From contig JAPLKR010000003.1 of assembly GCA_026387965.1 (NCBI GenBank), positions 1 to 13,093 on the forward strand: a DNA stretch of 13,093 nucleotides, written 5' to 3'. This stretch comes from Fusobacteriota bacterium. Its GTDB lineage: Bacteria > Fusobacteriota > Fusobacteriia > JAPLKR01. Each line of letters opens with the position of its first letter. The first letter of the stretch is position 1. Below the pieces are notes generated by a model. The model was not told the DNA's origin and did no database searches. It saw only the letters and a program-made list of their open reading frames with translations. The translations under genes and the position numbers were made by a program. This document shows positions 329 to 13,093 of the stretch, piece by piece.

Positions 329-2431
329 ATGAACTTACTAAAAATAGTCACAGATAATAATCTAACAAAAATGTTTATTCAAGGTAATTTCGGATTAGAA
401 AAAGAGAACTTAAGAGTGACTAAAGAGGGAAATTTAGCCCTTTCAAAACACCCTGAAGTATTTGGAGATAAACAGAAAAACCCTTATATAACTACGGATT
501 TTTCTGAAAGTCAAATAGAGATGATCACACCAGTACGCCCATCTGTTGAACTTGCATATACGTGCTTAGAAAATATTCATAATTGCGTTCTTGAAAGACT
601 AGATGGAGAATATTTATGGTCTCAAAGTATTCCTCCGAAACTCCCATCGGAGGAGAGAATTCCAATTGCAGAATTTTCGGACAGCGTTGAAGGGAGAGCG
701 GCACGTGTTTATAGAGAAAAATTAGCTGAAAATGGTAAGGCCAAACAGTTAATCTCAGGAATTCATTATAATTTTTCTTTTTCTGATGAATTTATTTTGA
801 AATTATGGAAAGTAACGGAGTGTAAATTAGAGTATAAAGAATTCAAAAGTGATTTATATATGAAGCTTTCAAGAGGATTTTTGAAATATCGCTTTGTAAT
901 TATTTATCTTTTTGGGGCAAGTTTTGCCATGGATAAAAGTTTTGGACATAATAAGTGTGGACTTCCGAGTTTAGATGAAGATACCCTTTATTTTAAAGAT
1001 GCTACTTCATTTAGAAATGGACGATGCGGGTATAATAATAAAGAGAGTTTTAATGTTCATTATGATTCTTTAGAAAGTTATATTCAGGGTATAGAAAATG
1101 CTATTTCTGAGGGTAAAATTCAAGGACTTTCTGAATTTTATAGTCCTATTCGTCTTAAAACGAAAAATAGTAAGCCAACCATATCACTGCTTAAATCACA
1201 AGGTGTTGAGTATGTAGAAATTAGAACAATTGATTTGAATCCATTAAATAAAATAGGTCTTGAACTCAAAGATATTCAATTTTTACATTACTTTTTGCTT
1301 TTTTGCGTATGTCAAGATATTGAGCAAACAACAGATTCTTTAGGTAAGTGGGCTTATAATCATAATTTAGTGGCTGAGCAAGGTAGAAATCTTGATATTT
1401 TATTGAAAGATGATGCGGGTGAGAAAAGTCTAAAAGTCACGTTAAATAATTTCTTTGATAATTTTAAGGAATTTTTATTAAAATTAGAGTTATATGAAAA
1501 TGTTAAAGAAATCTATACATTTCAACAGGTTAAAGTTCTTAATACAGATAGGACTTATGTTGCAGTTTTAGAAAAATTAGTGAGAGAAAATGGATATATC
1601 ACTTCACAAATGAATATGCTTATAAAATTTCATGAAACTGCTCTCGTCACGGCCTATCAAATGGTTGGGTATGAGGATCTAGAGCTTTCAACTCAAATTT
1701 TATTGAAAGCAGCCATTGTTAAAGGAGTTAAATTTCATTTTTTAGATGAAGATAAAGCGATTGTGATAAAACCAAAATCCACTAATTTTGGAATTGGAAT
1801 ATCAATTTTAAGAGAAAACCATGATTTAGATGCTTTTAAAGAAGCGTTAATGATAGCTTTTTCTCACGACATTGCTGTACTAGTAGAAGAGTTTATACCC
1901 GGTGAAGAGTATCGGTTTCTGATTATTGATGGTAAAGTAGAAGGGGTATTAAATAGACGTGCAGCTAATGTACTTGGTGATGGTATTCATACGATAGCTG
2001 AACTTGTTTCTATCAAAAATCAAGATTACCTAAGAGGTGAAGGATATGTTCGGCCTTTAGAGAAAATTCAAATTGCTGAGATTGAACGAGCCCTTATAAA
2101 AGTTCAAGGTTACACCGAATTTGATATTGTACCCCAAAATATTACAGTTTTTTTAAGAAAAAATTCTAATATTAGTACGGGTGGAGATAGTATAGATGTC
2201 ACAGATATGGTAACTTCAAAGTTTAAGAAGTTAGCCCTTCTTGCAGCGAAATCTGTTTCAGCAAATGTGTGTGGAGTGGATATGCTAATTGATCGAATTG
2301 ATGATGAAACGAGCGATTATTCAGTTATTGAACTTAATTTTAATCCAGCTATTCACATTCATTGTTTTCCATATCAAGGTAAGAAAAGAAAAATTGGTGA
2401 TAAAATTATAGATTTACTTTTCAAAATATAA
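329..2431 (+). CDS. gshAB: Bifunctional glutamate-cysteine ligase / glutathione synthetase (GshAB/GshF type)
   Basis: A cytoplasmic enzyme that makes glutathione in two ATP-dependent steps: Glu + Cys to gamma-Glu-Cys, then addition of Gly. The N-terminal half (about residues 1-430) has glutamate-cysteine ligase signatures: FGLEKENLRV (21-30), TTDFSESQIEMITP (55-68), SGIHYNFSFS (143-152) and VEIRTIDLNP (296-305). The C-terminal half is an ATP-grasp domain with KPKSTNFGIGIS (481-492), EEFIPGEEYR (520-529), STGGD (616-620) and VIELNFNPAI (666-675). Its 700 residues are slightly shorter than the roughly 750 usual for GshF, but both catalytic halves look complete. The start is set by AAAGGAG (316-322), 6 nt upstream of the ATG. 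It is the first gene of an operon, and the next gene begins 11 nt after its stop. The fused form is known from Firmicutes and some other bacteria, in contrast to separate gshA and gshB. Confidence 0.95.
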   Translation: MNLLKIVTDNNLTKMFIQGNFGLEKENLRVTKEGNLALSKHPEVFGDKQKNPYITTDFSESQIEMITPVRPSVELAYTCLENIHNCVLERLDGEYLWSQSIPPKLPSEERIPIAEFSDSVEGRAARVYREKLAENGKAKQLISGIHYNFSFSDEFILKLWKVTECKLEYKEFKSDLYMKLSRGFLKYRFVIIYLFGASFAMDKSFGHNKCGLPSLDEDTLYFKDATSFRNGRCGYNNKESFNVHYDSLESYIQGIENAISEGKIQGLSEFYSPIRLKTKNSKPTISLLKSQGVEYVEIRTIDLNPLNKIGLELKDIQFLHYFLLFCVCQDIEQTTDSLGKWAYNHNLVAEQGRNLDILLKDDAGEKSLKVTLNNFFDNFKEFLLKLELYENVKEIYTFQQVKVLNTDRTYVAVLEKLVRENGYITSQMNMLIKFHETALVTAYQMVGYEDLELSTQILLKAAIVKGVKFHFLDEDKAIVIKPKSTNFGIGISILRENHDLDAFKEALMIAFSHDIAVLVEEFIPGEEYRFLIIDGKVEGVLNRRAANVLGDGIHTIAELVSIKNQDYLRGEGYVRPLEKIQIAEIERALIKVQGYTEFDIVPQNITVFLRKNSNISTGGDSIDVTDMVTSKFKKLALLAAKSVSANVCGVDMLIDRIDDETSDYSVIELNFNPAIHIHCFPYQGKKRKIGDKIIDLLFKI

Positions 2432-2442
2432 AAGGATGTCAT

Positions 2443-3585
2443 ATGAAACTTTTCAATATTGTAGCAACCACAACCATAGGGTTGGAGTCTTGTGTTAAGA
2501 TAGAGCTAAAAAATCTTGGCATTGAAAATGTAAGAGTTGAGAACGGGTATTTAGAGTATGAAGGTACAGCTGAAACAGTGATTAAAAGTAATATTTATCT
2601 GCGTTGTGCTGATAGAGTATATGTTAAAATGGGAGAGTTTAAAGCCTTTACATTTGATGAGCTTTTTGAAGGTACTAAAGCGATTATGTGGGAAGAGTTA
2701 CTTCCGGTTACGGCTAATTTTCCAATTTCTTGGGTAAGTAGCGTTAAATCAAAACTTTTGTCAAAATCTGATTGCCAAAGAATCGTAAAAAAAGCGATTG
2801 TTGAGAGACTTAGAAACGTATACAAAGTTGATGAGATTCCTGAAACACATAGTAAGTATGCAATTAAGGTTCAGTTAGAGAAAGACCTTGCTACGATTCT
2901 TATAGATACAAGTGGAGAAGCACTTCATAAACGTGGGTATAGAAAAAAACATTTAGAAGCACCATTGAAGGAGACCTTAGCCGCTGGAATGATCATGCTT
3001 TCTTCATGGCGTGGAGATAGGTTCAATTTTATCGATCCAATGTGTGGAACAGGGACGATTCCTATTGAAGCGGCTATGATCGCTAAAAATATTGCACCAG
3101 GTGCTAATCGTAAGTTTATTTCAGAAGAGTGGTGTAGCTTGAAGAAAGAGTTGTGGTTAAAAGTGCGTGATGAGGCTTTTTCTGGCGAAAAAGAGTCTAT
3201 TATAATTAAAATCTTTGGTTCAGATTCGGATAAAAAAGCTATTGAAATTGCAAAAGAAAACGCAATTGAAGCTGGTGTAGAGGAGTGTATTATTTTTGAA
3301 GTAAAAAACTTTACAGAACTCGAAAAATCTGATGAGAGAAATGTGATTGTCACCAATCCTCCTTATGGTGAGAGACTTATGCAAGATGTAGAAGTAGAAG
3401 CGCTTTACTACCAGCTTGGAAAATGTTTAAAGGCTAATCATCCAGAGAGTAGTTGGCATATCATCACATCCTATGAAGCTTTTGAGAGCGCATTTTCAAA
3501 AAAGGCTGAAAAAAACAGAAAGTTGTATAATGGTGGTTTAAGATGTTATCTTTACCATTATCAAAATAGCAAAAAAAAATTATAG
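2443..3585 (+). CDS. THUMP-domain class I SAM-dependent RNA methyltransferase (RlmL N-half/YpsC-like)
   Basis: A probable rRNA guanine-N2 methyltransferase. Residues about 1-160 have the N-terminal ferredoxin-like plus THUMP arrangement that grips RNA, followed by the family linker LHKRGYR (161-167). The Rossmann methyltransferase domain has the SAM-binding motif DPMCGTGTIPIEAA (198-211) and the catalytic N-P-P-Y motif NPPYGERL (305-312). A length of 380 residues is normal for the stand-alone family; E. coli RlmL is longer because a second methyltransferase is fused to it. By homology the target would be the 23S rRNA m2G site (E. coli G2445), but the sequence alone does not prove the target. 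AAGGATG lies just upstream of the ATG, and the gene follows gshAB by 11 nt, so the two are co-transcribed. Confidence 0.88.
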   Translation: MKLFNIVATTTIGLESCVKIELKNLGIENVRVENGYLEYEGTAETVIKSNIYLRCADRVYVKMGEFKAFTFDELFEGTKAIMWEELLPVTANFPISWVSSVKSKLLSKSDCQRIVKKAIVERLRNVYKVDEIPETHSKYAIKVQLEKDLATILIDTSGEALHKRGYRKKHLEAPLKETLAAGMIMLSSWRGDRFNFIDPMCGTGTIPIEAAMIAKNIAPGANRKFISEEWCSLKKELWLKVRDEAFSGEKESIIIKIFGSDSDKKAIEIAKENAIEAGVEECIIFEVKNFTELEKSDERNVIVTNPPYGERLMQDVEVEALYYQLGKCLKANHPESSWHIITSYEAFESAFSKKAEKNRKLYNGGLRCYLYHYQNSKKKL

Positions 3586-3619
3586 AGTAGAAGATTACTC
3601 TAAAAAAGGAAGGTACAAA

Positions 3620-4471
3620 ATGATAGAAGTAGGAAAAAACAAGGTAATGAAAATCAACAATTTGAGTAAAATTGGAGTATATCTCGATGCAGAAACAGGA
3701 GATGCATTAGATAATATATTGCTTCCAAACAATCAAATTTTAGGTAAAAATTTTGTTGTAGGCCAAGAAATTGAGGTTTTTATTTACAGGGATTCTTCAG
3801 ATAGACTTATTGCGACATTAAAGGAGCCAAAATTAAAAGTTGGCGAAATAGGTAAGTTGAAAGTTGTTGATAAAGCTGAAATTGGATACTTTTTAGATCT
3901 AGGCCTAGAACGAGATCTATTTATGCCTAAAAAGGAAGCTGAAAAAGGTACTTTGATCGGTCAAGAGTATTTAGTTTACATGTATGTTGATAAAAGTGAT
4001 CGATTATGTGCTACAATGAAGATACATAAGTTATTGAATTCTACTGAGAAATTTAATGTTGGTGAGCTTGTAAAAGGAACAGTGTATCAGCTTGAAGAGA
4101 AACTTGGAGCATTTATTGCAGTAGAGAATCAATTTTATGGAAAAGTAGCAAAAGAGCTTATTTTTACTACGCTTGAACTTGGCAAAGAGTATGATTTTTA
4201 CGTTACCCGTATTACGGAAGATTTTAAATTAGATCTTTCATTTGGTAAACTAAAATTAGATCAACAAGCAGATGATTGGCAAAAATTATTAAACCATTTG
4301 AAAGAACACGGTGGAGTACTTGATGAGAGTTTAGAAGCTGATGACATTCGTGAAAAATATCAAATGAGTAAAAAGGCCTTTAAACGTGCCATTGGGATAT
4401 TGTTCAAGATGCGCCGTGTAACCCGTACCGATAAAGGATTTGTTGTAAATGAGCACAAAGGAAAACAATAA
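3620..4471 (+). CDS. cvfB: CvfB-family S1 RNA-binding protein
   Basis: A cytoplasmic RNA-binding protein of the CvfB/YitL family, linked in Staphylococcus to control of virulence gene expression. The 283 residues show three consecutive S1-like beta-barrels (about 5-66, 70-135 and 146-210). The first two share the pattern VGxE(I/Y), (V/I)YxDxSDRL, AT(L/M)K. A C-terminal winged-helix segment follows (about 215-283), ending in the family-like stretch REKYQMSKKAFKRAIG and then TDKGF. AAGGAAGG lies 7 nt before the ATG, supporting the start. It follows the methyltransferase by 34 nt and is followed 18 nt later by a tiny basic gene, so it belongs to the same operon. Its role in this organism is not shown by the sequence; it may influence translation or RNA turnover. 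Confidence 0.9.
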   Translation: MIEVGKNKVMKINNLSKIGVYLDAETGDALDNILLPNNQILGKNFVVGQEIEVFIYRDSSDRLIATLKEPKLKVGEIGKLKVVDKAEIGYFLDLGLERDLFMPKKEAEKGTLIGQEYLVYMYVDKSDRLCATMKIHKLLNSTEKFNVGELVKGTVYQLEEKLGAFIAVENQFYGKVAKELIFTTLELGKEYDFYVTRITEDFKLDLSFGKLKLDQQADDWQKLLNHLKEHGGVLDESLEADDIREKYQMSKKAFKRAIGILFKMRRVTRTDKGFVVNEHKGKQ

Positions 4472-5792: not shown

Positions 5793-6449
5793 ATGTACAA
5801 TCATATAGAAAATCAGTTGAGTCTAGATGAATTTGACTATCCCATCGGAAAACTTAAGGCGGATAATAGATGGATAGTTTTATCCAAGTTAATCCCATGG
5901 GAAGCAATAGAAAAAAAGTATAGAGAACATTTTGGAAAAAAAGGCAATGTTGCAGAGTCGTCTCGAATAGCTTTAGGTAGTTTAATCATAAAACGATATA
6001 CAATTGTAGTGATGAAGATGTAATTCTTCATGTAGAAGAAAATCCATACTTGCAATATTTTTTAGGGATGAAAAAGTCTGAAATAAACACGTGCCCGTTT
6101 TCAAAGCAGAGTATGAGTGAATTCAGAAAAGTTTCAGCGGTTAAATGCAATCAATGGGATTATTATAGAAAAAGTTCATCCCATTGAAGAGAAAAAAACG
6201 AAAACAAAAAATAGTGGAGAATTAGTGATAGATGCAACGTGTATACCAGCAGATATAACGTATCCCCAAGATACAAAGCTTCTAAATCGCTGTAGAGAAG
6301 AAACAGAAAAAATCATCGATGAAGTGTGCAAGACGAATAAAATCAAGAAGCCAAGAATGAAGAGATAGCTAGCACGACGAGACTATTTGAAATTCTCAAA
6401 AAGCAAAAAACAAGGAGCGAAGCAAACTCGTAAGGCGCTAAAGTGGATA
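5793..6449 (+). pseudogene. IS1182-like (IS5-related) transposase, frameshifted and truncated
   Basis: The N-terminal part of a transposase of the IS1182 type, which would cut and paste its own element. The first frame carries NRWIVLSKLIPWEAIEKKY and later GSLIIKRY. Reading then shifts at about 5990-6000 into another frame with VEENPYLQYFLGM, and shifts again near 6110-6130 into a frame with GELVIDATCIPADITYP and LLNRCREETEKIIDEVC. An in-frame TAG at 6366 interrupts it before a basic segment (RRDYLKFSKSKKQGAKQTRKAL). The rest of the gene, including the C-terminal catalytic part, is missing where the IS150-like element begins. AGGAG precedes the original ATG. At least two frameshifts plus a stop and a truncation make it dead. 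Confidence 0.85.
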
Positions 6450-6463
6450 GGTTATACTAAACT

Positions 6464-6491
6464 GGACAGGAAATAAAAGACATCCTATAAT
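6464..6491 (+). promoter_or_regulatory. Transposase promoter inside the IS left end
   Basis: TGGACA (6464-6469) and TATAAT (6486-6491) are spaced by 16 bp. The -35 box is part of the terminal inverted repeat, so transposase binding to the end could repress it. The -10 is perfect and the -35 matches 5 of 6 bases. Confidence 0.55.
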
Positions 6492-6526
6492 ATTAAGAAG
6501 AGAAAAAAGTAGGAGGATGTTTGGAA

Positions 6527-6805
6527 ATGAAAAATAAAAAATATACAAAAGAATTTAAAGCTCAAATAGTAGCGTTGTATCAAAGTGGAAAAACGCCAGG
6601 AGACATCGTGAGAGAATATGAATTAAGTAGTCACTCTCTGATATCCACATGGGTAAAGCAATTTGAAACCAGTGGAAAATTTACAGTAGCAGATAATCGG
6701 AGTATCCTGGAAAAAGAGCTAATAGAGCTCAAAAAGCGCAATAAGCAATTAGAAATGGAAAATGACATACTAAAGCAAGCAGCGCTGATAATGGGACGAA
6801 AATAA
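6527..6805 (+). CDS. IS3-family transposase OrfA (helix-turn-helix subunit)
   Basis: The DNA-binding part of an IS3-family transposase. Residues about 5-50 form the HTH_Tnp_1 fold (YTKEFKAQIVALYQSG, then a second helix pair ending in STWVKQFE). Residues about 60-85 are a leucine-zipper-like coiled coil (KELIELKKRNKQLEMENDIL) that lets OrfA and the OrfAB fusion dimerise. I place the start at the ATG 6527, 10 nt after AGGAGG (6511-6516). A TTG at 6521 in the same frame is the alternative. The stop at 6803 lies 41 nt before the first ATG of orfB, which is in the -1 frame. An A-run (6799-6802) just before the stop could allow the programmed -1 shift used by this family, though it is short. Confidence 0.85.
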   Translation: MKNKKYTKEFKAQIVALYQSGKTPGDIVREYELSSHSLISTWVKQFETSGKFTVADNRSILEKELIELKKRNKQLEMENDILKQAALIMGRK

Positions 6806-6846
6806 AGCTTATACGATACAACAGTGAGAAATATTCGATATCAGCA

Positions 6847-7605
6847 ATGTGCAAATTATTAAACATCCCAAGGAACAGCTATTACTATGAAAGTAATAGA
6901 GAAGTAAGAGATGAAACCGAGTTAGAAAAATTAATAATAGTAAGCTTTAAAAACAGCAGAAACAACTATGGTACACGAAAAATCAAGCAAGAAATGAAGA
7001 ATTTAGGGCATCAGGTATCAAGACGTAGAATAGGCCGCATCATTAGAGAATTAGGATTAATTTCAAACTATACAAAAGCACATTACAAAGTAAAGAAAGC
7101 AAAATGTAATGAAGAATGCGTTGAAAACATAGTAAATCGTGAGTTTTCTGAACGTAAAGAATACGATGTAGCAATCAGTGATTTAACCTACGTACGAGTG
7201 GGTGGAAAGTGGCATTACATCTGTTTAATTGTAGATTTATTCAATAGAGAAATAATAGGGTATAGTGTAGGTCCACATAAAGATGCAGCATTGGTATTAG
7301 AAGCGTTTAGAAGTATTAAAGTATCGTTGAAGAAAATAACAATATTCCACACCGATAGAGGAAGTGAATTTAAAAATGAAGCAATTGACACACTTCTTAA
7401 AACTTTCGAAATAACAAGATCTCTCAGTGCAAAAGGAACACCATATGACAATGAAAAAGAATTTGTTTATCAGAAACAGTTCAACAGTTTAAATGAACTC
7501 AGAATTCTTTTAGCAGATTATGTGCATTGGCATAATTTTATTAGATTACATGGTTCCATTGGTTATATGCCGCCTGAAAAATATCGGTTAGTTTCGTCTT
7601 TTTGA
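6847..7605 (+). CDS. IS3-family (IS150-like) transposase OrfB, catalytic Glu region deleted
   Basis: The integrase-type catalytic subunit of the IS. The N-terminal helix-turn-helix region reads CKLLNIPRNSYYYES, followed by NYGTRKIKQEM. The DDE core has the first Asp in ISDLTYVRVGGKWHYICLIVD and the second in HTDRGSEF. After GTPYDN the sequence jumps directly to EKEFVYQKQFNSLNELR. In this family a segment like AVAEATYKIFKTEF normally stands there and supplies the third catalytic Glu, so roughly ten residues are missing without loss of frame. The protein is therefore probably inactive. In the native arrangement it is translated by -1 frameshifting from orfA, and the frame is open upstream of this ATG to around 6793. 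Confidence 0.8.
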   Translation: MCKLLNIPRNSYYYESNREVRDETELEKLIIVSFKNSRNNYGTRKIKQEMKNLGHQVSRRRIGRIIRELGLISNYTKAHYKVKKAKCNEECVENIVNREFSERKEYDVAISDLTYVRVGGKWHYICLIVDLFNREIIGYSVGPHKDAALVLEAFRSIKVSLKKITIFHTDRGSEFKNEAIDTLLKTFEITRSLSAKGTPYDNEKEFVYQKQFNSLNELRILLADYVHWHNFIRLHGSIGYMPPEKYRLVSSF

Positions 7606-7628
7606 TTTTGTCCAAATAACTGTTGACA

Positions 7629-8435
7629 ATCCAATTACTCGGAATTAACCGTTCTAGCTACTATTATAAATAGAAAGACAAGCCCTCTATGACAGATGAA
7701 CTCTATCATATCGTATTGGCTTTACATCTTAAGTATCCCTATTTGGGAGCACGAAGTATAAGGGATCAATTAAAGCGGAGCGGGCATAATATTGATGGAC
7801 GAAAATCGAGTAAAATGACGAAAGAACTTAAAATCAAAATGGTGTCTCCCAAACCTAATTAAAGTTTGGCCAATAAAACGTATAAAAAGTTCCCCTATTT
7901 GTTGACAGGCATAGAAATACCAAGAAAAAATCAAGTGTGGTGTACCGATATCACGTATATACGTTGCCAAAATGGATTCATGTACCTTACAGCTATTACC
8001 GATGTCTACTCACGCTATATCGTAGCATGGGGACTCTCGAACTCACTTAACAAGGAACTCTGTACGAGTGTATTGAAAAAAGCCTTAAAACGGGTAAAAC
8101 CTGAAATCATTAACACAGATCAAGGGAGTCAATACATGAGTAATGACTTTGTTGACCTTGTGAGTAAAAACAAGATCCAATTAAGTATGGATTCTAAATG
8201 GAGAACTCGGGATAATATTCGGATTGAACGCTTTTGGCGTAGCATTAAATATCAAGAGATATTCTTAAACGAATATCCCAATGTGACAGGACTTTACCTT
8301 GGGATTCAGAAATATATCGGATTTTATAACCATCATAGAGGACATCAATCATTAGAGATGAATACTCCCGCATCCGTTTATTTCCATAGTTTAATTTTCT
8401 ACTCTAAAAAAGTATACGTTAAAAAAATTGCTTAA
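7629..8435 (+). pseudogene. Second IS3-type transposase OrfB, two in-frame stops, 5' part lost
   Basis: A remnant of a different IS3-family element. Read in one frame it gives LLGINRSSYYYK, a TAG stop (7671-7673), then DELYHIVLALHLKYPYLGAR and VSPKPN, and a TAA stop (7860-7862). A long open part follows with all three catalytic positions in context: WCTDITYI, INTDQGSQY and RIERFWRSIKYQE, ending in YNHHRGHQSLEMNTP. No orfA is found; the sequence begins directly at the right end of the IS150-like element, which probably replaced it. The open part from about 7866 could be translated from a TTG, but it would lack the N-terminal DNA-binding domain. It has clearly different sequence and different termini from its neighbour element. 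Confidence 0.85.
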
Positions 8436-8468
8436 ACTTTTTAAAAGAGTGTCTTGACTTCTGCTCCA
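8436..8468 (+). other. Right terminus of the second IS3-type remnant
   Basis: Directly after the transposase stop. Read inward from the right, the end begins TGGAGCAGAAGTCAAGACA, resembling the TG-starting, GACA-containing terminal repeats of IS3 elements. The left copy is lost, so the boundary at 8468 is inferred from the terminal CA and from where the truncated precursor coding begins. Confidence 0.5.
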
Positions 8469-8510
8469 TTATATATATTTTGAATTTTTTATACCATAAA
8501 CTTTTAACAT
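8469..8510 (-). pseudogene. Truncated ninth Cys-rich precursor, cut by the IS end
   Basis: On the minus strand, AGGAAGG and an ATG at 8510 begin MLKVYGIKNSKYI followed by a stop at the IS junction (8469-8471). The first six residues are the leader shared by all precursors of the cluster. The 13 residues end just before the point where siblings have their first Cys (usually residue 15), so the Cys-rich core was removed by the insertion. It follows precursor 8 by 13 nt, the same tight spacing as the other members. The missing half is not found anywhere left of the IS wreckage in this window. Confidence 0.8.
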
Positions 8511-8523
8511 AAAGCCTTCCTAA

Positions 8524-8760
8524 TTAAAATCCGGTGCAATCCGATGGACAATTATTATTGCTACAAACTTGACTACATTGTGCATTACAAACTTGTCCAC
8601 ATTTAGAATTGCAATTAGATGCACAACTATTGGAAGAACAACTGTTGTCCAATTGACAATAATTTGTACATTGCGATTTTGATATACATTGAGTAGTGCA
8701 TTTGATATTAAAAGGGCAAGTTTCAAATTTTTGATTATTAAATCCATAGACTCTCAACAT
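8524..8760 (-). CDS. Cys-rich RiPP precursor peptide (78 aa, 14 Cys)
   Basis: Starts MLRVYGFNNQKFETC, a variant of the MLKVYG leader with Arg at position 3. The core has 14 Cys, of which six run at an exact spacing of four residues (positions 46 to 66, units such as CGQVCNAQCSQVC). The core is otherwise made of Ser, Asn, Gln and Thr, ending DCTGF. The ribosome site AGAGG lies about 9 nt before the ATG. It follows the outer-membrane protein gene by 41 nt and would be the third cistron of the second transcript. By context it is a substrate of the radical SAM/SPASM enzyme. A metallothionein-like metal binder is the main alternative, but the conserved leader argues for enzyme recognition. Confidence 0.85.
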   Translation of the reverse strand: MLRVYGFNNQKFETCPFNIKCTTQCISKSQCTNYCQLDNSCSSNSCASNCNSKCGQVCNAQCSQVCSNNNCPSDCTGF

Positions 8761-8801
8761 TATTTAATCCTCTTATCATTAGAATTTTTTTATGTAATTA
8801 A

Positions 8802-9425
8802 TTAAATATTGAAGTTATATCCCATTGAAACACCATATCTCATATAATTTATTTTTGTGCCTTGTTGATTATTATTTGTTGCGTATACATTTCCATCTTC
8901 AATATTTAATTCAAAGTTTATATTTGATAAATTAACAAACCATAATTGAGTATTTTTAAAAGTTGTACCAATACCAGCACTCCAAAATAATCCAGGATTA
9001 TAAGTACATCCAAAGTTAGGTGCATGAGCAAAATCTAAACCTAATTTTCCTTCAAAATATGGAAGAAAAATAGAGTTGTTTAGAAGATTAAGACGATAAA
9101 TTGCATAGATAGGTAAATTTCCCATAACGGTATAATAATTAGGATACCCAGACATTTCTTGAACATTGTGCAAATCTTCAATATTAAATCCCAATCCAGC
9201 CCATTGAGAATTAGAAAATTTATAGAAACTGTTAAAACCCAAAAATAGAGGGGTAGTAGTACTTGGACGACTTAAACTTTCACTGCCATTTGATAGTTTT
9301 ATATTTCCTGCGGATGTGTTTTGCCCAATATTAATCTGAAAATTCCATGGATTGGATATAGTATCAGCTAAACATAGACTTGAAATTATAGATAGACTTG
9401 AAATTAAAATAATTATTTTTTTCAT
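8802..9425 (-). CDS. Secreted outer-membrane beta-barrel protein in the peptide cluster
   Basis: A 207-residue protein with a clear Sec signal peptide: MKK, a hydrophobic stretch ISSLSIISS, and cleavage likely after SLCLA (residue 20). The mature part has alternating polar/apolar strands rich in aromatics and Asn (NPWNFQINIG, TPLFLGFNSFYKF, GLGFNIEDL, GLFWSAGIGTTF, MRYGVSMGYNFNI), as in small 8-stranded barrels, and closes with an aromatic-containing last strand. I do not recognise a specific family. AGGAG of its ribosome site overlaps the TAG stop of the preceding precursor gene, only 12 nt away, so the two are probably translationally coupled. That places it inside the peptide pathway. Export, surface display or self-protection are reasonable guesses, none shown by the sequence. 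Confidence 0.75.
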   Translation of the reverse strand: MKKIIILISSLSIISSLCLADTISNPWNFQINIGQNTSAGNIKLSNGSESLSRPSTTTPLFLGFNSFYKFSNSQWAGLGFNIEDLHNVQEMSGYPNYYTVMGNLPIYAIYRLNLLNNSIFLPYFEGKLGLDFAHAPNFGCTYNPGLFWSAGIGTTFKNTQLWFVNLSNINFELNIEDGNVYATNNNQQGTKINYMRYGVSMGYNFNI

Positions 9426-9437
9426 TTTATTAAGCTC

Positions 9438-9662
9438 CTAACTGTGAATAACACAATTTCCATGACAACTAACAGAAGAACACACACTAGCACACTTAGA
9501 TGTACATACGTTGCTGCATTGAGTAGTACAAACGTTTGAGCATTGTGTATTGCAAACAGAAGTACAAGTATCTGTAATACAAGTATTAATCGAACAAACT
9601 TTTTTACATACTGAATTAACATTTGAAAATTCAGTAACATATATTCCATAAACTTTTAACAT
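9438..9662 (-). CDS. Cys-rich RiPP precursor peptide (74 aa, 13 Cys, CXXX repeat)
   Basis: I chose the ATG at 9662, which gives MLKVYGIYVTEF and has AAAGGA about 7 nt upstream. An earlier in-frame ATG at 9710 would add 16 residues not found in any sibling. The core has 13 Cys, and eight of them (positions 33, 37, 41 through 61) are spaced exactly four residues apart, with the near-repeated units NTQCSNVC and TTQCSNVC. It ends CHGNCVIHS, like the end of the 65-residue sibling at 10264. It is the first gene of the second transcript, behind a hairpin and an AT-rich promoter region, and its stop overlaps the ribosome site of the outer-membrane protein gene. Confidence 0.88.
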   Translation of the reverse strand: MLKVYGIYVTEFSNVNSVCKKVCSINTCITDTCTSVCNTQCSNVCTTQCSNVCTSKCASVCSSVSCHGNCVIHS

Positions 9663-9673
9663 TTTTTTCCTTT

Positions 9674-9687
9674 CGTTATCGATAGCG
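9674..9687. promoter_or_regulatory. Dyad in the leader of the CXXX precursor gene
   Basis: CGTTATCGATAGCG is a near-perfect 14-bp palindrome centred on TATCGATA, just before the ribosome site of the precursor starting at 9662. A second dyad, AAACAA/TTGTTT with a 4-nt centre, lies at 9705-9720. Either could bind a dimeric regulator. No regulator gene is in the window. Confidence 0.3.
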
Positions 9688-9720
9688 TTGAAATAAAATA
9701 TATCAAACAATATTTTGTTT

Positions 9721-9747
9721 CATATAGTAAAAATAATTTTAAATCAA
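9721..9747 (-). promoter_or_regulatory. Weak candidate promoter of the second precursor transcript
   Basis: On the minus strand TTGATT (9747-9742) is followed after 15 bp by TATATG (9726-9721). The spacing is shorter than ideal and the region is very AT-rich, so the exact boxes are uncertain. A promoter is expected here because a hairpin separates this unit from the upstream genes. Confidence 0.25.
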
Positions 9748-9763
9748 TAAATTTTTTTTTTAG

Positions 9764-9806
9764 AAATACAAGACATCTGTGTAGAATCATCAGATGTCTT
9801 GTATTT
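9764..9806 (-). terminator. 16-bp hairpin between the two precursor transcripts
   Basis: AAATACAAGACATCTG (9764-9779) pairs perfectly with CAGATGTCTTGTATTT (9791-9806) around an 11-nt loop. It starts 21 nt after the stop of the precursor at 9828. On the minus strand the stem ends in GTATTT but is followed by CTAAAA rather than a long T tract, so it may act as a leaky terminator or an RNA-stabilising 3' end rather than a strong terminator. Confidence 0.5.
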
Positions 9807-9827
9807 TAAGATTTAAATATGAACTAA

Positions 9828-10001
9828 TTATTTTGATAGCCAAAGAGTTGAACATGTATTCGAAGTACAGTTATAACCAGTGCAATTCATATTACAATTA
9901 TCAATATCGCAATTTCCATGACAAACTCCTGAACATTGAATTTGGCATACGTAAGTGCAACTTTCTTTGTTAATTGTATCAAAACCAAATACTTTTAACA
10001 C
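9828..10001 (-). CDS. Cys-rich RiPP precursor peptide (57 aa, 9 Cys), GTG start
   Basis: The start is a GTG at 10001 with AAGGAG about 7 nt upstream, giving (M)LKVFGFDTINKESC, the family leader with Phe at position 5. The only in-frame ATG is 75 nt farther up, inside the preceding gene, and would add unrelated residues. The core holds nine Cys with mixed spacing (CTYVCQIQCSGVCHGNC, then CNMNC) and, unusually, a Cys-free hydrophobic tail LWLSK. It is the shortest intact member and the last gene before the hairpin at 9764-9806. It follows the precursor at 10022 by 20 nt. Confidence 0.82.
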   Translation of the reverse strand: MLKVFGFDTINKESCTYVCQIQCSGVCHGNCDIDNCNMNCTGYNCTSNTCSTLWLSK

Positions 10002-10021
10002 AATAATACTCCTTAAATAAT

Positions 10022-10243
10022 TTATTTTTTTAAGGCATTTTGAGGACTGCAGAAAACTAAACAATCGCCAGTACACCCTCCATTATTTATACATTGTCCA
10101 TAGCATTGTGACGGGCATTGCACATTGCAGTAATTCATACAATTATTAGTACAGCCATTTGAATTACATGAATGAAAAGGACACCCAATGTCAAAAGGAC
10201 AAGCGGTATTGATATTTTTATTTATTCCATAAACCTTTAACAT
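10022..10243 (-). CDS. Cys-rich RiPP precursor peptide (73 aa, 12 Cys)
   Basis: Begins MLKVYGINKNINTAC, with AGGAG 8 nt before the ATG. Twelve Cys follow, with the segment CNVQCPSQCYGQC and then GGCTGDC. It is clearly related to the next member upstream (10264-10461), which has CNTQCPQQCYQC and GGCHGNC, so the two look like a duplicated pair. It ends with a Cys-poor basic tail (SPQNALKK). Neighbours lie 20 nt away on each side, consistent with one polycistronic message with separate translation starts. Confidence 0.88.
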   Translation of the reverse strand: MLKVYGINKNINTACPFDIGCPFHSCNSNGCTNNCMNYCNVQCPSQCYGQCINNGGCTGDCLVFCSPQNALKK

Positions 10244-10263
10244 ACAATGTTCTCCTAATTAGA

Positions 10264-10461
10264 TTAATGTATAATACAATTTCCGTGACAACCACCATTT
10301 GCAGAACATTGATAACATTGTTGAGGACATTGTGTATTACAATATGTTCCACACATTGTTGTACAATGATCCGCTTGACAAGTATGCACAGCACAGCCGA
10401 TATCTGTTTGGCATATTCCAACATTTTTGTTCGTGTAAGATAAACCATAAACTTTTAGCAT
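10264..10461 (-). CDS. Cys-rich RiPP precursor peptide (65 aa, 11 Cys)
   Basis: Begins MLKVYGLSYTNKNVGIC, with a strong AAGGAGG 4 nt before the ATG, perhaps the best ribosome site of the cluster. Eleven Cys, first at residue 17. The core contains CQADHCTTMCGTYC and CPQQCYQC, and ends HGNCIIH. Its core aligns with the 73-residue sibling downstream, and its C-terminus aligns with the CXXX member at 9438. The mixed ancestry suggests recombination or repeated duplication within the cluster. Expected substrate of the radical SAM/SPASM enzyme upstream. Confidence 0.88.
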   Translation of the reverse strand: MLKVYGLSYTNKNVGICQTDIGCAVHTCQADHCTTMCGTYCNTQCPQQCYQCSANGGCHGNCIIH

Positions 10462-10489
10462 AAAACCTCCTTTTAAATTAAAATAATAA

Positions 10490-10687
10490 TTAATATTTTG
10501 TTACAGATGTACAAGAGTTTCCTGGACAATCATTTGTTCCACAAGTATTTGGTGAACATTGGTATGGACATACAGGATTACAATTAGGATTACAATTAGG
10601 AACGCACTGACCATGACATCCACAATTATTACAAATATCAAGACACATACTATCTTTATAGCTCTGAACTCCATAGACTTTAAGCAT
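10490..10687 (-). CDS. Cys-rich RiPP precursor peptide (65 aa, 12 Cys)
   Basis: Begins MLKVYGVQSYKDSMC, with AGGAG 8 nt before the ATG. The first 28 residues match the next member upstream (10715-10921) except at two positions, so these are recent duplicates. The second half differs completely: Pro/Asn-rich with NCNPNCNPVCPYQC here against Gln/Thr-rich there. The NCNP unit is encoded by an exact 12-bp tandem repeat. Twelve Cys in total. The shared front and divergent back show where the leader plus conserved core ends and where diversification is tolerated. Confidence 0.9.
   Translation of the reverse strand: MLKVYGVQSYKDSMCLDICNNCGCHGQCVPNCNPNCNPVCPYQCSPNTCGTNDCPGNSCTSVTKY
10575..10598. repeat. 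12-bp exact tandem repeat inside a precursor core
   Basis: Two exact copies of GGATTACAATTA, followed by a partial third (GGA). On the minus strand they encode consecutive Asn-Cys-Asn-Pro units. In-frame repeats of this kind can expand or contract the core by slippage without breaking the gene. Confidence 0.85.
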
Positions 10688-10714
10688 TTTAAATTCTCCT
10701 ATATTCTTTTAAAA

Positions 10715-10921
10715 TTAATGTGTAGCACAGGATTGTGTAGTACATGTTTGAGTGGGACACATTTGTGCTGTGCAAGTTTGAGTTTGACACTGTCCCGTAC
10801 ATGTATTGTAAGGATTACAATTTGGTATACATTGATTGCACTGACCACGACAACCGCAGTTGTTGCAGATATCAAGACACATACCATCTTTATAGCTTTG
10901 AACACCATAAACTTTTAGCAT
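10715..10921 (-). CDS. Cys-rich RiPP precursor peptide (68 aa, 13 Cys)
   Basis: Begins MLKVYGVQSYKDGMC, with AAAGGAG 7 nt before the ATG. Thirteen Cys: an N-terminal cluster CLDICNNCGCRGQC shared with its downstream twin, then a Gln/Thr-rich region in which Cys recur every four to five residues (CQTQTC, CPTQTCTTQSC). It is the first gene after the maturase, 24 nt from its stop, so enzyme and substrate are on the same message. The absence of a double-Gly or other recognisable protease site means the leader may be removed by an enzyme encoded elsewhere, or not removed at all. Confidence 0.9.
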   Translation of the reverse strand: MLKVYGVQSYKDGMCLDICNNCGCRGQCNQCIPNCNPYNTCTGQCQTQTCTAQMCPTQTCTTQSCATH

Positions 10922-10945
10922 TTAACTGCTCCTTTCTTAAAGTTA

Positions 10946-12445
10946 TTAATTACATTCGTTACATGTTTGACAAGTATTACACTTTTCTTCGTGTTTTGGT
11001 TCATGTTCTTTTAATAAATAAACGTCTAAATAATTTTTGAGCTTTTCCATTACTGTATCTTCTGTAGCTAGACATCCTTCCATAAGAACTTCAATTTTAT
11101 TATATTTACAACCACCAATACAAACAGGAAGCAATTTGCAATCAATACAATTTTTATATTGTGTAAGATTGTTAAACATGCTATCTTTCCATTTTTTGAA
11201 CATTTTGTCATAAAATTCCATAGTACCATCTTGATTTAGTTTTCCAACTGCTTTTGAGTCCTCGCCAACCATAGATTCACAAGCAAATAATGCTCCTTTA
11301 ACGGTTACACAATAAGTGTTATTGGTAGAAAAACAAGGATGAAATTTAGGTCTCGGTAATACTGAATAAAGATGTTCGATTTGAGAAAGTTTAAGTTTTT
11401 CAATATCGTATGAGTTGTTTAATTGGCATGCAGTATCTAAACCATCTTTTTCTCCAAATATTTTTTCAGCAATTTCACCGGTGTCATTTTCAGCCTGATA
11501 TACTTGATGAAAGTAATTTGAAAAACGTTTGTCATCTTCAAAATCTTTTTTTAACATATCTTTGAGTTCTAACATTGAATCAATATTAGAATTTAAGAAA
11601 TTTGAACGTATAGAAATATTGAAATTCATCTCAGGAGTTGATTTTTCTTTAATTTCTAATAGATTTTTATAAATTGTATCAAAAGTAGGGCCTTTATTTC
11701 CACGCAAATATCTTGTTTGATCGTGAGTTTGCTTGTTTCCATCTAGAGTAATTTGAAAAAATGTAATTTTTCTATCTACAAATTTTTTAAGAAGATCAAA
11801 ATTCAACAAATAACCATTTGTAATCATTGTAGAACCAACATGAACATTTGTATAATTTTTTTCTAATTCTAAAACTCTATCCATAAATTTTATAATGCTG
11901 TCAGCTGCACAAGTTGGTTCCCCACCAAACCATGAAACATCCACGCGAGTAGGAATAATTATTTTTTCAATTTCTTCTTCAGTTTTTCCTTCTTCTTTAG
12001 CTTTTTCTTTTAATTCTAATTCTTTTTTCTTATTCTCTTCAATTTTTAAAATAAAAGAATTGTATATTCCATCGAAAACTTCTTGACTCATTGGCGGTCT
12101 ATCATAACTATAAATAAAACAATAAGGACAAGCAAAATTACAATATTCTGTAGGAACGATAACGTAACCGATATGTTGTTTTGCTTCTTCGATTGCCAGT
12201 TCGTGAAGCTCTTTAATATTTCCAATTTCATCTTCATCAGAATCGACTACAAACTTATAATCAACTAATTGTTTTAACATAGTGTCATCTTTGTCAAATT
12301 TTTTAGGATTACTTAATACGTTTTTGAAGTTTTCTGTATCTTGTTTGTCTGGGACAACAACACCTCCAGTTTTAAAATTAAAAACAACTACTCGTCCATT
12401 ATTTTCATACTTAAGATTATAAATGCTTTCTCTGTAATTATTCAT
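10946..12445 (-). CDS. Radical SAM/SPASM peptide maturase (Clo7bot/ranthipeptide-like)
   Basis: Probable modifying enzyme for the Cys-rich peptides. It would use a SAM-bound 4Fe-4S cluster to make radicals, plus auxiliary clusters in a SPASM domain. Residues 1-95 form a leader-binding-like N-terminal region. The radical SAM motif is C102-x3-C106-x2-C109 (CNFACPYC) and the GGEP motif is at 174-177. The SPASM Cys are C371, C379, C389, C433, C436, C442, C446 and C458. Between the first two motifs lies a charged helical insert (about 132-163, Lys/Glu-rich). The protein ends in an unusual CNTCQTCNECN tail. I use the ATG at 12445, 8 nt after AAGGA; a TTG just before it is the alternative. Family members of this type form thioether bonds from Cys; the exact product here is inferred. 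It lies between precursors and shares their promoter. Confidence 0.9.
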   Translation of the reverse strand: MNNYRESIYNLKYENNGRVVVFNFKTGGVVVPDKQDTENFKNVLSNPKKFDKDDTMLKQLVDYKFVVDSDEDEIGNIKELHELAIEEAKQHIGYVIVPTEYCNFACPYCFIYSYDRPPMSQEVFDGIYNSFILKIEENKKKELELKEKAKEEGKTEEEIEKIIIPTRVDVSWFGGEPTCAADSIIKFMDRVLELEKNYTNVHVGSTMITNGYLLNFDLLKKFVDRKITFFQITLDGNKQTHDQTRYLRGNKGPTFDTIYKNLLEIKEKSTPEMNFNISIRSNFLNSNIDSMLELKDMLKKDFEDDKRFSNYFHQVYQAENDTGEIAEKIFGEKDGLDTACQLNNSYDIEKLKLSQIEHLYSVLPRPKFHPCFSTNNTYCVTVKGALFACESMVGEDSKAVGKLNQDGTMEFYDKMFKKWKDSMFNNLTQYKNCIDCKLLPVCIGGCKYNKIEVLMEGCLATEDTVMEKLKNYLDVYLLKEHEPKHEEKCNTCQTCNECN

Positions 12446-12466
12446 CAATATTTTCCTTTCAAAAAA

Positions 12467-12676
12467 TTATAGGTTTGTTGAACATGCAAAAACTGTGCAA
12501 TTTTGACTTGTACATTGTTCGTTTTGACATGGATGGTAGTAAGTATATTGCATTGTACATTGTGAATTAGCTATATAATAAATGTTGGAAGGGCAATCAC
12601 AAGGACAATTTGGACAGAATGATTGAGAATTGATTTTTTTCGAATTTTGGTTAGTCAAACCATAGACTTTTAACAA
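12467..12676 (-). CDS. Cys-rich RiPP precursor peptide, first gene of the operon (69 aa, 9 Cys), TTG start
   Basis: A TTG at 12676 gives (M)LKVYGLTNQNSKK, matching the family leader exactly, with AGGA about 8 nt upstream. An ATG at 12685 in the same frame would add MTT but has the AGG directly against it. This is the most divergent member: the first Cys comes only at residue 21 (CPNCPCDCP), and the middle is rich in Tyr with few Cys (MQYTYYHPC), followed by CTSQNC. It alone lies upstream of the maturase (18 nt away), so it is first on the transcript. It may be a preferred substrate or have a separate role. Confidence 0.85.
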   Translation of the reverse strand: MLKVYGLTNQNSKKINSQSFCPNCPCDCPSNIYYIANSQCTMQYTYYHPCQNEQCTSQNCTVFACSTNL

Positions 12677-12725
12677 AGTAGTCATCCTAAATAAAATTTA
12701 TATATTAACAATGCGAATTATTAAT

Positions 12726-12754
12726 ATTCTATCATTTTTTGTTTTTTTAGTCAA
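12726..12754 (-). promoter_or_regulatory. Sigma70-type promoter of the peptide/maturase operon
   Basis: On the minus strand TTGACT (12754-12749) is followed after exactly 17 bp by TAGAAT (12731-12726). The boxes match 5 of 6 bases each. The predicted transcript would start about 12719, leaving about 40 nt before the first precursor. Confidence 0.7.
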
Positions 12755-12853: not shown

Positions 12854-12924
12854 AGCTCATAAGAAGGAAGTCTGTTATAATGTAGGTTACGATCAAACAT
12901 TAAGGAGACTTTAACTTATGAGCT
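12854..12924 (+). repeat. Inverted repeat overlapping the IS30 transposase start
   Basis: AGCTCATAAG (12854-12863) is the exact reverse complement of CTTATGAGCT (12915-12924). The second arm contains the ATG of the transposase. In a transcript reading through from outside the element the arms could pair and hide the start codon; a transcript from the internal promoter would lack the first arm. Confidence 0.6.
12873..12881 (+). promoter_or_regulatory. Extended -10 promoter of the IS30-type transposase
   Basis: TGTTATAAT (12873-12881) combines a TG extension with a perfect TATAAT. No good -35 is seen 17 bp upstream, which extended -10 promoters can tolerate. It lies between the arms of the inverted repeat. 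Confidence 0.5.
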
Positions 12925-13093
12925 ATATCCATTTTACCATAGAAGAGCGCGAAAGTATACAGATGATGCTTGCCCGAGGAGAAAATCAAACAAGTATAGC
13001 GGAAAATCTTAATCGCAGTAAAAGCACTATAAGTCGAGAGTTAATAAGAAATAGTCTGAACGGCAATTATAGTACACTCAAAGCAGAAAAGCT
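12918..13093 (+). CDS. IS30-family transposase, N-terminal part (runs off the window)
   Basis: The ATG at 12918 has AAGGAG 10 nt upstream and opens a frame that continues past the window end (58 codons visible). The visible protein, starting MSYIHFTIEERESIQMML, carries the IS30-type N-terminal helix-turn-helix: EERESIQMMLARGENQTSIA, then LNRSKSTISRELIRN. The DDE catalytic part would lie to the right, so whether the gene is intact cannot be judged. The element's left end lies somewhere between the cluster promoter and about 12850, but I cannot fix it. With the wreckage at 5.7-8.5 kb it brackets the peptide cluster. Confidence 0.88.
   Translation, partial: MSYIHFTIEERESIQMMLARGENQTSIAENLNRSKSTISRELIRNSLNGNYSTLKAEK

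Follow-up and report, generated by a model that had tools for sequence, protein, structure and literature searches.

How could one radical enzyme serve many dissimilar peptides, and what would it make of them? The question is raised by a cluster on the minus strand (12685-8469) of a 13,093-nt stretch of DNA (hereafter the window), which is the complete contig C75 (JAPLKR010000003.1) of a 1.79-Mb assembly from a Fusobacteriota bacterium (GCA_026387965.1). Eight intact cysteine-rich open reading frames (ORFs; P1 to P8), one ORF for a radical S-adenosylmethionine (SAM)/SPASM enzyme and a ninth precursor (P0), cut by the end of an insertion sequence (IS), lie here as a preliminary description of the sequence had reported (Table 1). 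We consider it likely that the locus is a cluster for ribosomally synthesized and post-translationally modified peptides (RiPPs), in which a single leader-guided maturase acts on eight precursors and forms thioethers from Cys(i) to residue i+3.

Cysteine-rich precursors behind a constant leader

The eight intact precursors comprise 549 residues, 93 of them cysteines (17%; 9-14 per peptide), and this recount, with P8 read from its TTG codon, reproduces the earlier figures exactly. Scanning all six frames of the window gave no Cys-dense frames beyond these eight. Shine-Dalgarno-like AGGA/GGAG sequences stand close upstream of every precursor; in P8 an AGG touches the listed ATG but is well spaced from a TTG three codons later, and P8 most likely starts at this TTG (12676), giving the N-terminus MLKVYG instead of MTTLLKVYG. 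Read in this way, all precursors open M-L-[K/R]-V-[Y/F]-G and differ in the remainder, so the common (M)LKVYG-like leader proposed earlier is borne out with the starts of P8 and P3 (GTG) corrected. Its likening to the leader of the Clo7bot peptides did not hold, as those encoded on a Paraclostridium plasmid start MKFIKKPxxKFEEGFC.

Across the nine leaders, codons 2, 3, 4 and 6 differ synonymously and the sole replacements are K to R and Y to F, which indicates that selection acts on the leader peptide. A back-translated pattern of the ATG-started leader occurs three times in the 1.79-Mb genome, always within the cluster (control 0), and a profile of the eight precursors, run on 98 genomes of the phylum, found no copy outside the cluster. 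The precursors gave no meaningful match in Pfam, NCBIfam or PHROGs; one precursor searched in plasmids and one in phages recovered no relatives, and none of the ten matches to a ribosome-binding-site-plus-leader pattern in IMG/VR was Cys-rich. Behind the constant leader the cores look reshuffled: the N-terminal halves of P6 and P7 agree at 86% over 86 nt while their C-terminal halves are unlike, and a CHGNC module is repeated in P2, P3 and P5. No precursor has a signal peptide, as judged by reading, which counts against simple Sec-exported disulfide peptides.

A regular spacing of cysteines and candidate acceptors

The 85 Cys-to-Cys gaps in the cores are mostly CX3C (44) or CX4C (22) and never CC, as against 9.3, 7.2 and 18.6 respectively in shuffled cores; metallothionein-like CXC is rare (4/85). 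Three residues downstream of Cys, 49 of the 76 positions hold Asn, Gln or Asp (N/Q/D; 23.3 expected). Gaps of at least 4 were taken alone to separate this effect from a preference for the residue preceding the next Cys, and here 24 of 32 +3 positions hold N/Q/D (expected 9.9), a count that 0 of 2000 shuffles reach. At +1, +2 and +4 the same residues are at or under expectation. For the reverse orientation, NxxC, the cores are depleted of Gln at -3 and show no enrichment of Asn there. The less frequent +3 residues are V/Y/H, and Asp/Glu number only one or two per core. The preliminary description had missed both the spacing and the +3 rule.

This pattern suggests a core rule, C-X-X-[N/Q/D], in which a donor Cys at i would be linked by a thioether to an acceptor at i+3. 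The acceptors of characterised ranthipeptides, Asn, Thr and Asp, are residues with amide, hydroxyl or acid side chains (PMC8326336), a chemistry that fits N/Q/D at +3. PapB makes CX3D rings; it still works with 1-5 residues in between but not with the order reversed (PMC9413430), and this residue order and tolerance of spacing make a linkage from Cys to a downstream acceptor chemically reasonable.

A SPASM enzyme with a CteB-like predicted fold

The SAM motif CX3CX2C of the enzyme (C102, C106 and C109) and its seven SPASM cysteines (C371, C389, C433, C436, C442, C446 and C458) are conserved without exception in eight relatives. It scores 44.8 bits against the SPASM model TIGR04085 (cut-off 27) and is the sole protein in the genome that matches it. 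The nearest NCBIfam model is TIGR04463, of which the enzyme is not a member (176.5 bits; cut-off 525). Assignments to the PapB-type ranthipeptide maturases (NF047865, 94.6 bits vs 340; the cores also have N/Q/D at +3 rather than +4 and few Asp/Glu) and to the SCIFF maturases (TIGR03974, 53.9 vs 425) were rejected, as was membership of the anaerobic sulfatase maturases (TIGR03942, 59.2 vs 349), an outcome that had been named as one that would overturn the first interpretation.

Because a phmmer search of the enzyme against the PDB gave nothing at E 0.01, structure comparison was used. The AlphaFold2 model has a mean predicted local distance difference test (pLDDT) score of 76.7, with about 90 in the N-terminal beta/alpha domain and a weak SPASM region. 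Its best Foldseek match is CteB (5why; E 1.9e-13), and a VIA-align superposition on CteB spans residues 7-474 (Z 19.4), a score that anSME equals over the catalytic part. As the alignment to CteB starts at residue 7, it covers the region resembling a RiPP recognition element (RRE), and the predicted fold points to an N-terminal RRE-like domain for leader recognition.

MLKVYG and about 8-14 further residues would be bound by the RRE-like domain as a beta-strand, a conformation to which the short MLKVYG[I/L/V/F], with its alternating residues, would lend itself; in CteB, too, the leader binds the RRE in this form (PMC8326336). On the model of CteB and PapB, the radical SAM cluster would yield a 5'-deoxyadenosyl radical that takes a hydrogen from a residue of the core, and the thioether would be closed by a Cys thiol close to a SPASM cluster, at 2 Da per ring. 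With each Cys joined to the residue three downstream, the product would be a string of small four-residue rings. The enzyme would tolerate divergent cores because recognition lies in the leader; it probably staples all eight precursors, and combinatorial chemistry by one enzyme on differing cores is plausible.

Two further features of the enzyme were observed. Its C-terminus (10946-10985) is the Cys-rich tail KCNTCQTCNECN; the Clo7bot enzyme ctpM (L023) ends GCEKGCCSCG, and the closest relatives have no tail. Such tails look like substrate-like sequence carried on the enzyme. Residues about 138-166 (window 11940-12030) form a charged helical insertion of ~27 residues in the radical SAM domain, absent or shorter in 8/8 aligned relatives.

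Relatives of the maturase

Within the phylum, matches to the enzyme at E 1e-20 occur in two other genomes only, G063 (39% identity) and G025 (29%), where the C-rich system is a different one. Elusimicrobiota hold more relatives (L008, L063-L068), some with one or two MFTWYQ-led precursors and ABC transporters. A scan of genome contigs with tight patterns turned up distant relatives and a single one of moderate closeness, L008 (32% in its best segment), and no match was found in viral contigs. TIGR04463 is the best model for all the relatives, each under its cut-off. In a 12-row tree, thinly sampled and with a long window branch, the window enzyme groups with that of G063 (90/89) and next with the Elusimicrobiota, and a 100/100 branch parts them from the Clo7bot and TIGR04463-annotated representatives. 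The enzyme branch, the precursor leader family and the C-x-x-[N/Q/D] core rule appear new, being described in none of the resources searched.

The neighbourhoods of the G063 and Elusimicrobiota enzymes differ from the window in having leaders of the type ..VDVYGYEDGG.. or MFTWYQ.., only one or two precursors seen, and proteases or ABC transporters nearby. In G063 (L028 10097-10276) a precursor-like peptide, MKDKIKELELEELEVNGYVDVYGYEDGG..GCHHICNSHDC, which has VYG in common with the window leader, adjoins the closest enzyme, in the vicinity of a related second peptide copy, S8 and S41 protease genes and an ABC/HlyD/TolC-type exporter set. In the Elusimicrobiota (L063 8517-8804; L066 4414-4760), tandem short peptides, [M]xxWYQ...EAVEC..ACCLSG(V/C)CCK, have a TIGR04463-like enzyme and genes for ABC transporters beside them; these WYQ peptide pairs are a second unnamed Cys-rich system. 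G025 (L003 1057-2835) has a radical SAM enzyme scoring 342 bits against TIGR04463, below its cut-off, followed by Cys-bearing peptides with MEWIQKP. An unverified faecal scaffold labelled 'Bacteriophage sp.' (MT836101.1, L025; 5971-8337) holds a Clo7bot-like maturase (292/600 bits) and the start of an ABC transporter, and is probably bacterial DNA, not phage.

Alternative readings of the cluster

Several points weigh against leader-guided thioether formation. Val occupies 11 of the 76 +3 positions and lacks the acid, amide or hydroxyl side chain of characterised ranthipeptide acceptors, so that a sactipeptide-like linkage to the alpha-carbon may apply instead. The paralogous precursors are not independent, which makes the shuffle P values optimistic. 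In the known Cys-Asn ranthipeptide NxxcA the link runs the other way, from Cys23 back to Asn20, and the motif of PapB is CX3D (PMC9413430, PMC8326336). Neither a protease nor a transporter lies in or adjoins the cluster within what the contig shows, and no C39 peptidase or exporter-peptidase was found in the genome. The thioether chemistry, moreover, is one that we infer. A radical SAM RiPP cluster with some other modification (epimerisation, C-C bonds, oxidation), its cysteines serving disulfides or metal, is an unlikely account but one to be taken seriously, since SPASM maturases perform many reactions (PMC8326336, PMC11002830) and V, Y and other residues at +3 share no common side-chain chemistry; it must, however, accommodate a closest fold match that is itself a thioether-forming enzyme and a regular Cys-to-+3 rule that marks Cys as a partner. 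It is hardly credible that the peptides stay unmodified, as metal-binding or disulfide peptides, with the enzyme acting elsewhere: 17% Cys and the want of an exporter close by would agree with this, yet the enzyme gene is embedded 21-24 nt from a precursor on either side, the common leader is under selection, CXC is rare and CC absent.

Scarcely more probable is that this lineage acquired a genuine Clo7bot system by transfer. The best precursor scores 9.8 bits (E 2.45) against the Clo7bot peptide model TIGR04333 (cut-off 31) and the enzyme 162.2 bits against the maturase model TIGR04334 (cut-off 600), the leaders are dissimilar, and the enzyme's group is parted from the Clo7bot enzyme in the tree. 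What speaks for a transfer is the same layout of many precursors and one maturase, the Cys tail on both enzymes, and cores in which CX3C likewise predominates with a preference for N/D at +3; among seven Clo7bot peptides of the Paraclostridium plasmid the +3 N/Q/D rule is weaker (15/37, expected 7.2). The first interpretation is thus retained as to kind, one leader-guided maturase with several substrates, and abandoned as to family. We propose only tentatively, and with some doubt, that the cluster represents a new RiPP class, in which one leader-guided enzyme would install up to about 76 C(i) to i+3 thioether rings, mainly on Asn/Gln/Asp acceptors, in eight cores of a diderm anaerobe. If true, a single enzyme would produce many different ring-bearing peptides, a natural combinatorial stapling machine outside Clostridia, in an outer-membrane lineage. 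For the production of stapled peptides, radical SAM maturases with a broad range of dissimilar substrates are of practical value. Here nature supplies a single enzyme with nine leaders and eight cores, and under the C-x-x-[N/Q/D] rule the residues joined in each ring become a prediction testable in a single mass-spectrometry experiment.

Gene arrangement and surroundings

Intergenic gaps in the cluster are 12-41 nt, except for the 165 nt between P3 and P2 that house a strong hairpin, the probable end of a first transcript. Two transcripts, P8-enzyme-P7-P3 and P2-outer-membrane protein-P1-P0, are therefore likely, and the earlier claim that the enzyme and its substrates share one message would apply to the first set only. 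Promoter-like consensus sites showed no enrichment over shuffles, so that the site upstream of P8 is suggestive only.

Table 1. Features of the cluster, listed in the direction of the minus strand.
Feature	Position	Strand	Remarks
Promoter-like site, TTGACT-17-TAGAAT, TG ahead of -10	12726..12754	-	50 nt upstream of P8; consensus scan, 10/12 matches
Precursor P8, 69 aa, 9 Cys, MLKVYGLTNQ...	12467..12676	-	TTG start, AGGA upstream; listed ATG ORF starts 12685
Radical SAM/SPASM peptide maturase, 499 aa	10946..12445	-	Predicted RRE-like N-terminus 1-70; SAM and SPASM Cys; Cys-rich tail
Precursor P7, 68 aa, 13 Cys	10715..10921	-	N-terminal half near-identical to P6
Precursor P6, 65 aa, 12 Cys	10490..10687	-	
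Precursor P5, 65 aa, 11 Cys	10264..10461	-	
Precursor P4, 73 aa, 12 Cys	10022..10243	-	
Precursor P3, 57 aa, 9 Cys, (M)LKVFGF	9828..10001	-	GTG start
Hairpin, 16-bp perfect arms, between P3 and P2	9764..9806	-	-23.9 kcal/mol, z -5.9; no T run after it on minus strand
Precursor P2, 74 aa, 13 Cys, long CX3C run	9438..9662	-	
Outer-membrane 8-stranded beta-barrel protein, signal helix, OmpW/OmpA-like fold	8802..9425	-	Between P2 and P1
Precursor P1, 78 aa, 14 Cys, MLRVYGF	8524..8760	-	
Broken precursor P0, leader MLKVYGIKNSK	8469..8510	-	IS end cuts at about 8468

The outer-membrane gene noted earlier in this diderm lineage was confirmed: the model of its product (pLDDT 62.8, moderate) has a signal helix and eight strands and matches OmpW/OprG/OmpA, and 34 of the 98 genomes of the phylum encode weak relatives, among them fusions with OmpA-like domains. 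As an ordinary small beta-barrel, the protein supports a diderm cell. At the other end of P1, P0 (ATG TTA AAA GTT TAT GGT...) runs into the IS end; a second genomic copy of the IS has the same sequence as far as CTCCATTATA and diverges beyond, and a look through the window for a further Cys-dense frame did not recover the rest of P0. Decayed or partial insertion sequences flank the cluster at 5793-8468 and 12918-13093 (two IS3-like sets, another transposase fragment and an IS30-like start), and with such remnants on both sides, where the contig breaks, the cluster may be mobile or eroding. Further away, at 329-4471, a gene that reads as a gshF-like one for bifunctional glutathione synthesis is followed by genes for an rRNA/DNA methyltransferase-like product and a CvfB-like S1 protein.

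Comparison with known systems

In layout the cluster most resembles Clo7bot of Paraclostridium bifermentans (NZ_CP094934), where about nine Cys-rich precursors with a short N-terminal leader stand in a row with one SPASM maturase (CtpM), unlike the window with ABC exporters adjoining. Because that arrangement is already annotated for Clo7bot, the layout itself is known and its novelty is lowered; our literature search found no paper naming Clo7bot or TIGR04463. The TIGR04463 ('rSAM_vs_C_rich') maturases are the best NCBIfam match of the window enzyme and its relatives, yet at scores short of membership. CteB has the RRE-radical SAM-SPASM fold that is predicted for the window enzyme. NxxcA and PapA use Asn/Asp acceptors, comparable to the +3 residues of the window, in the orders N-x-x-C and CX3D, whereas the window cores have C-x-x-[NQD]. 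The ranthipeptide systems of CteB, PapB and NxxcA are not known to come with eight-precursor arrays. The prochlorosins offer a parallel in logic, as ProcM is likewise a single tolerant enzyme acting on numerous divergent cores behind a common leader, although by lanthionine chemistry and with an unrelated enzyme.

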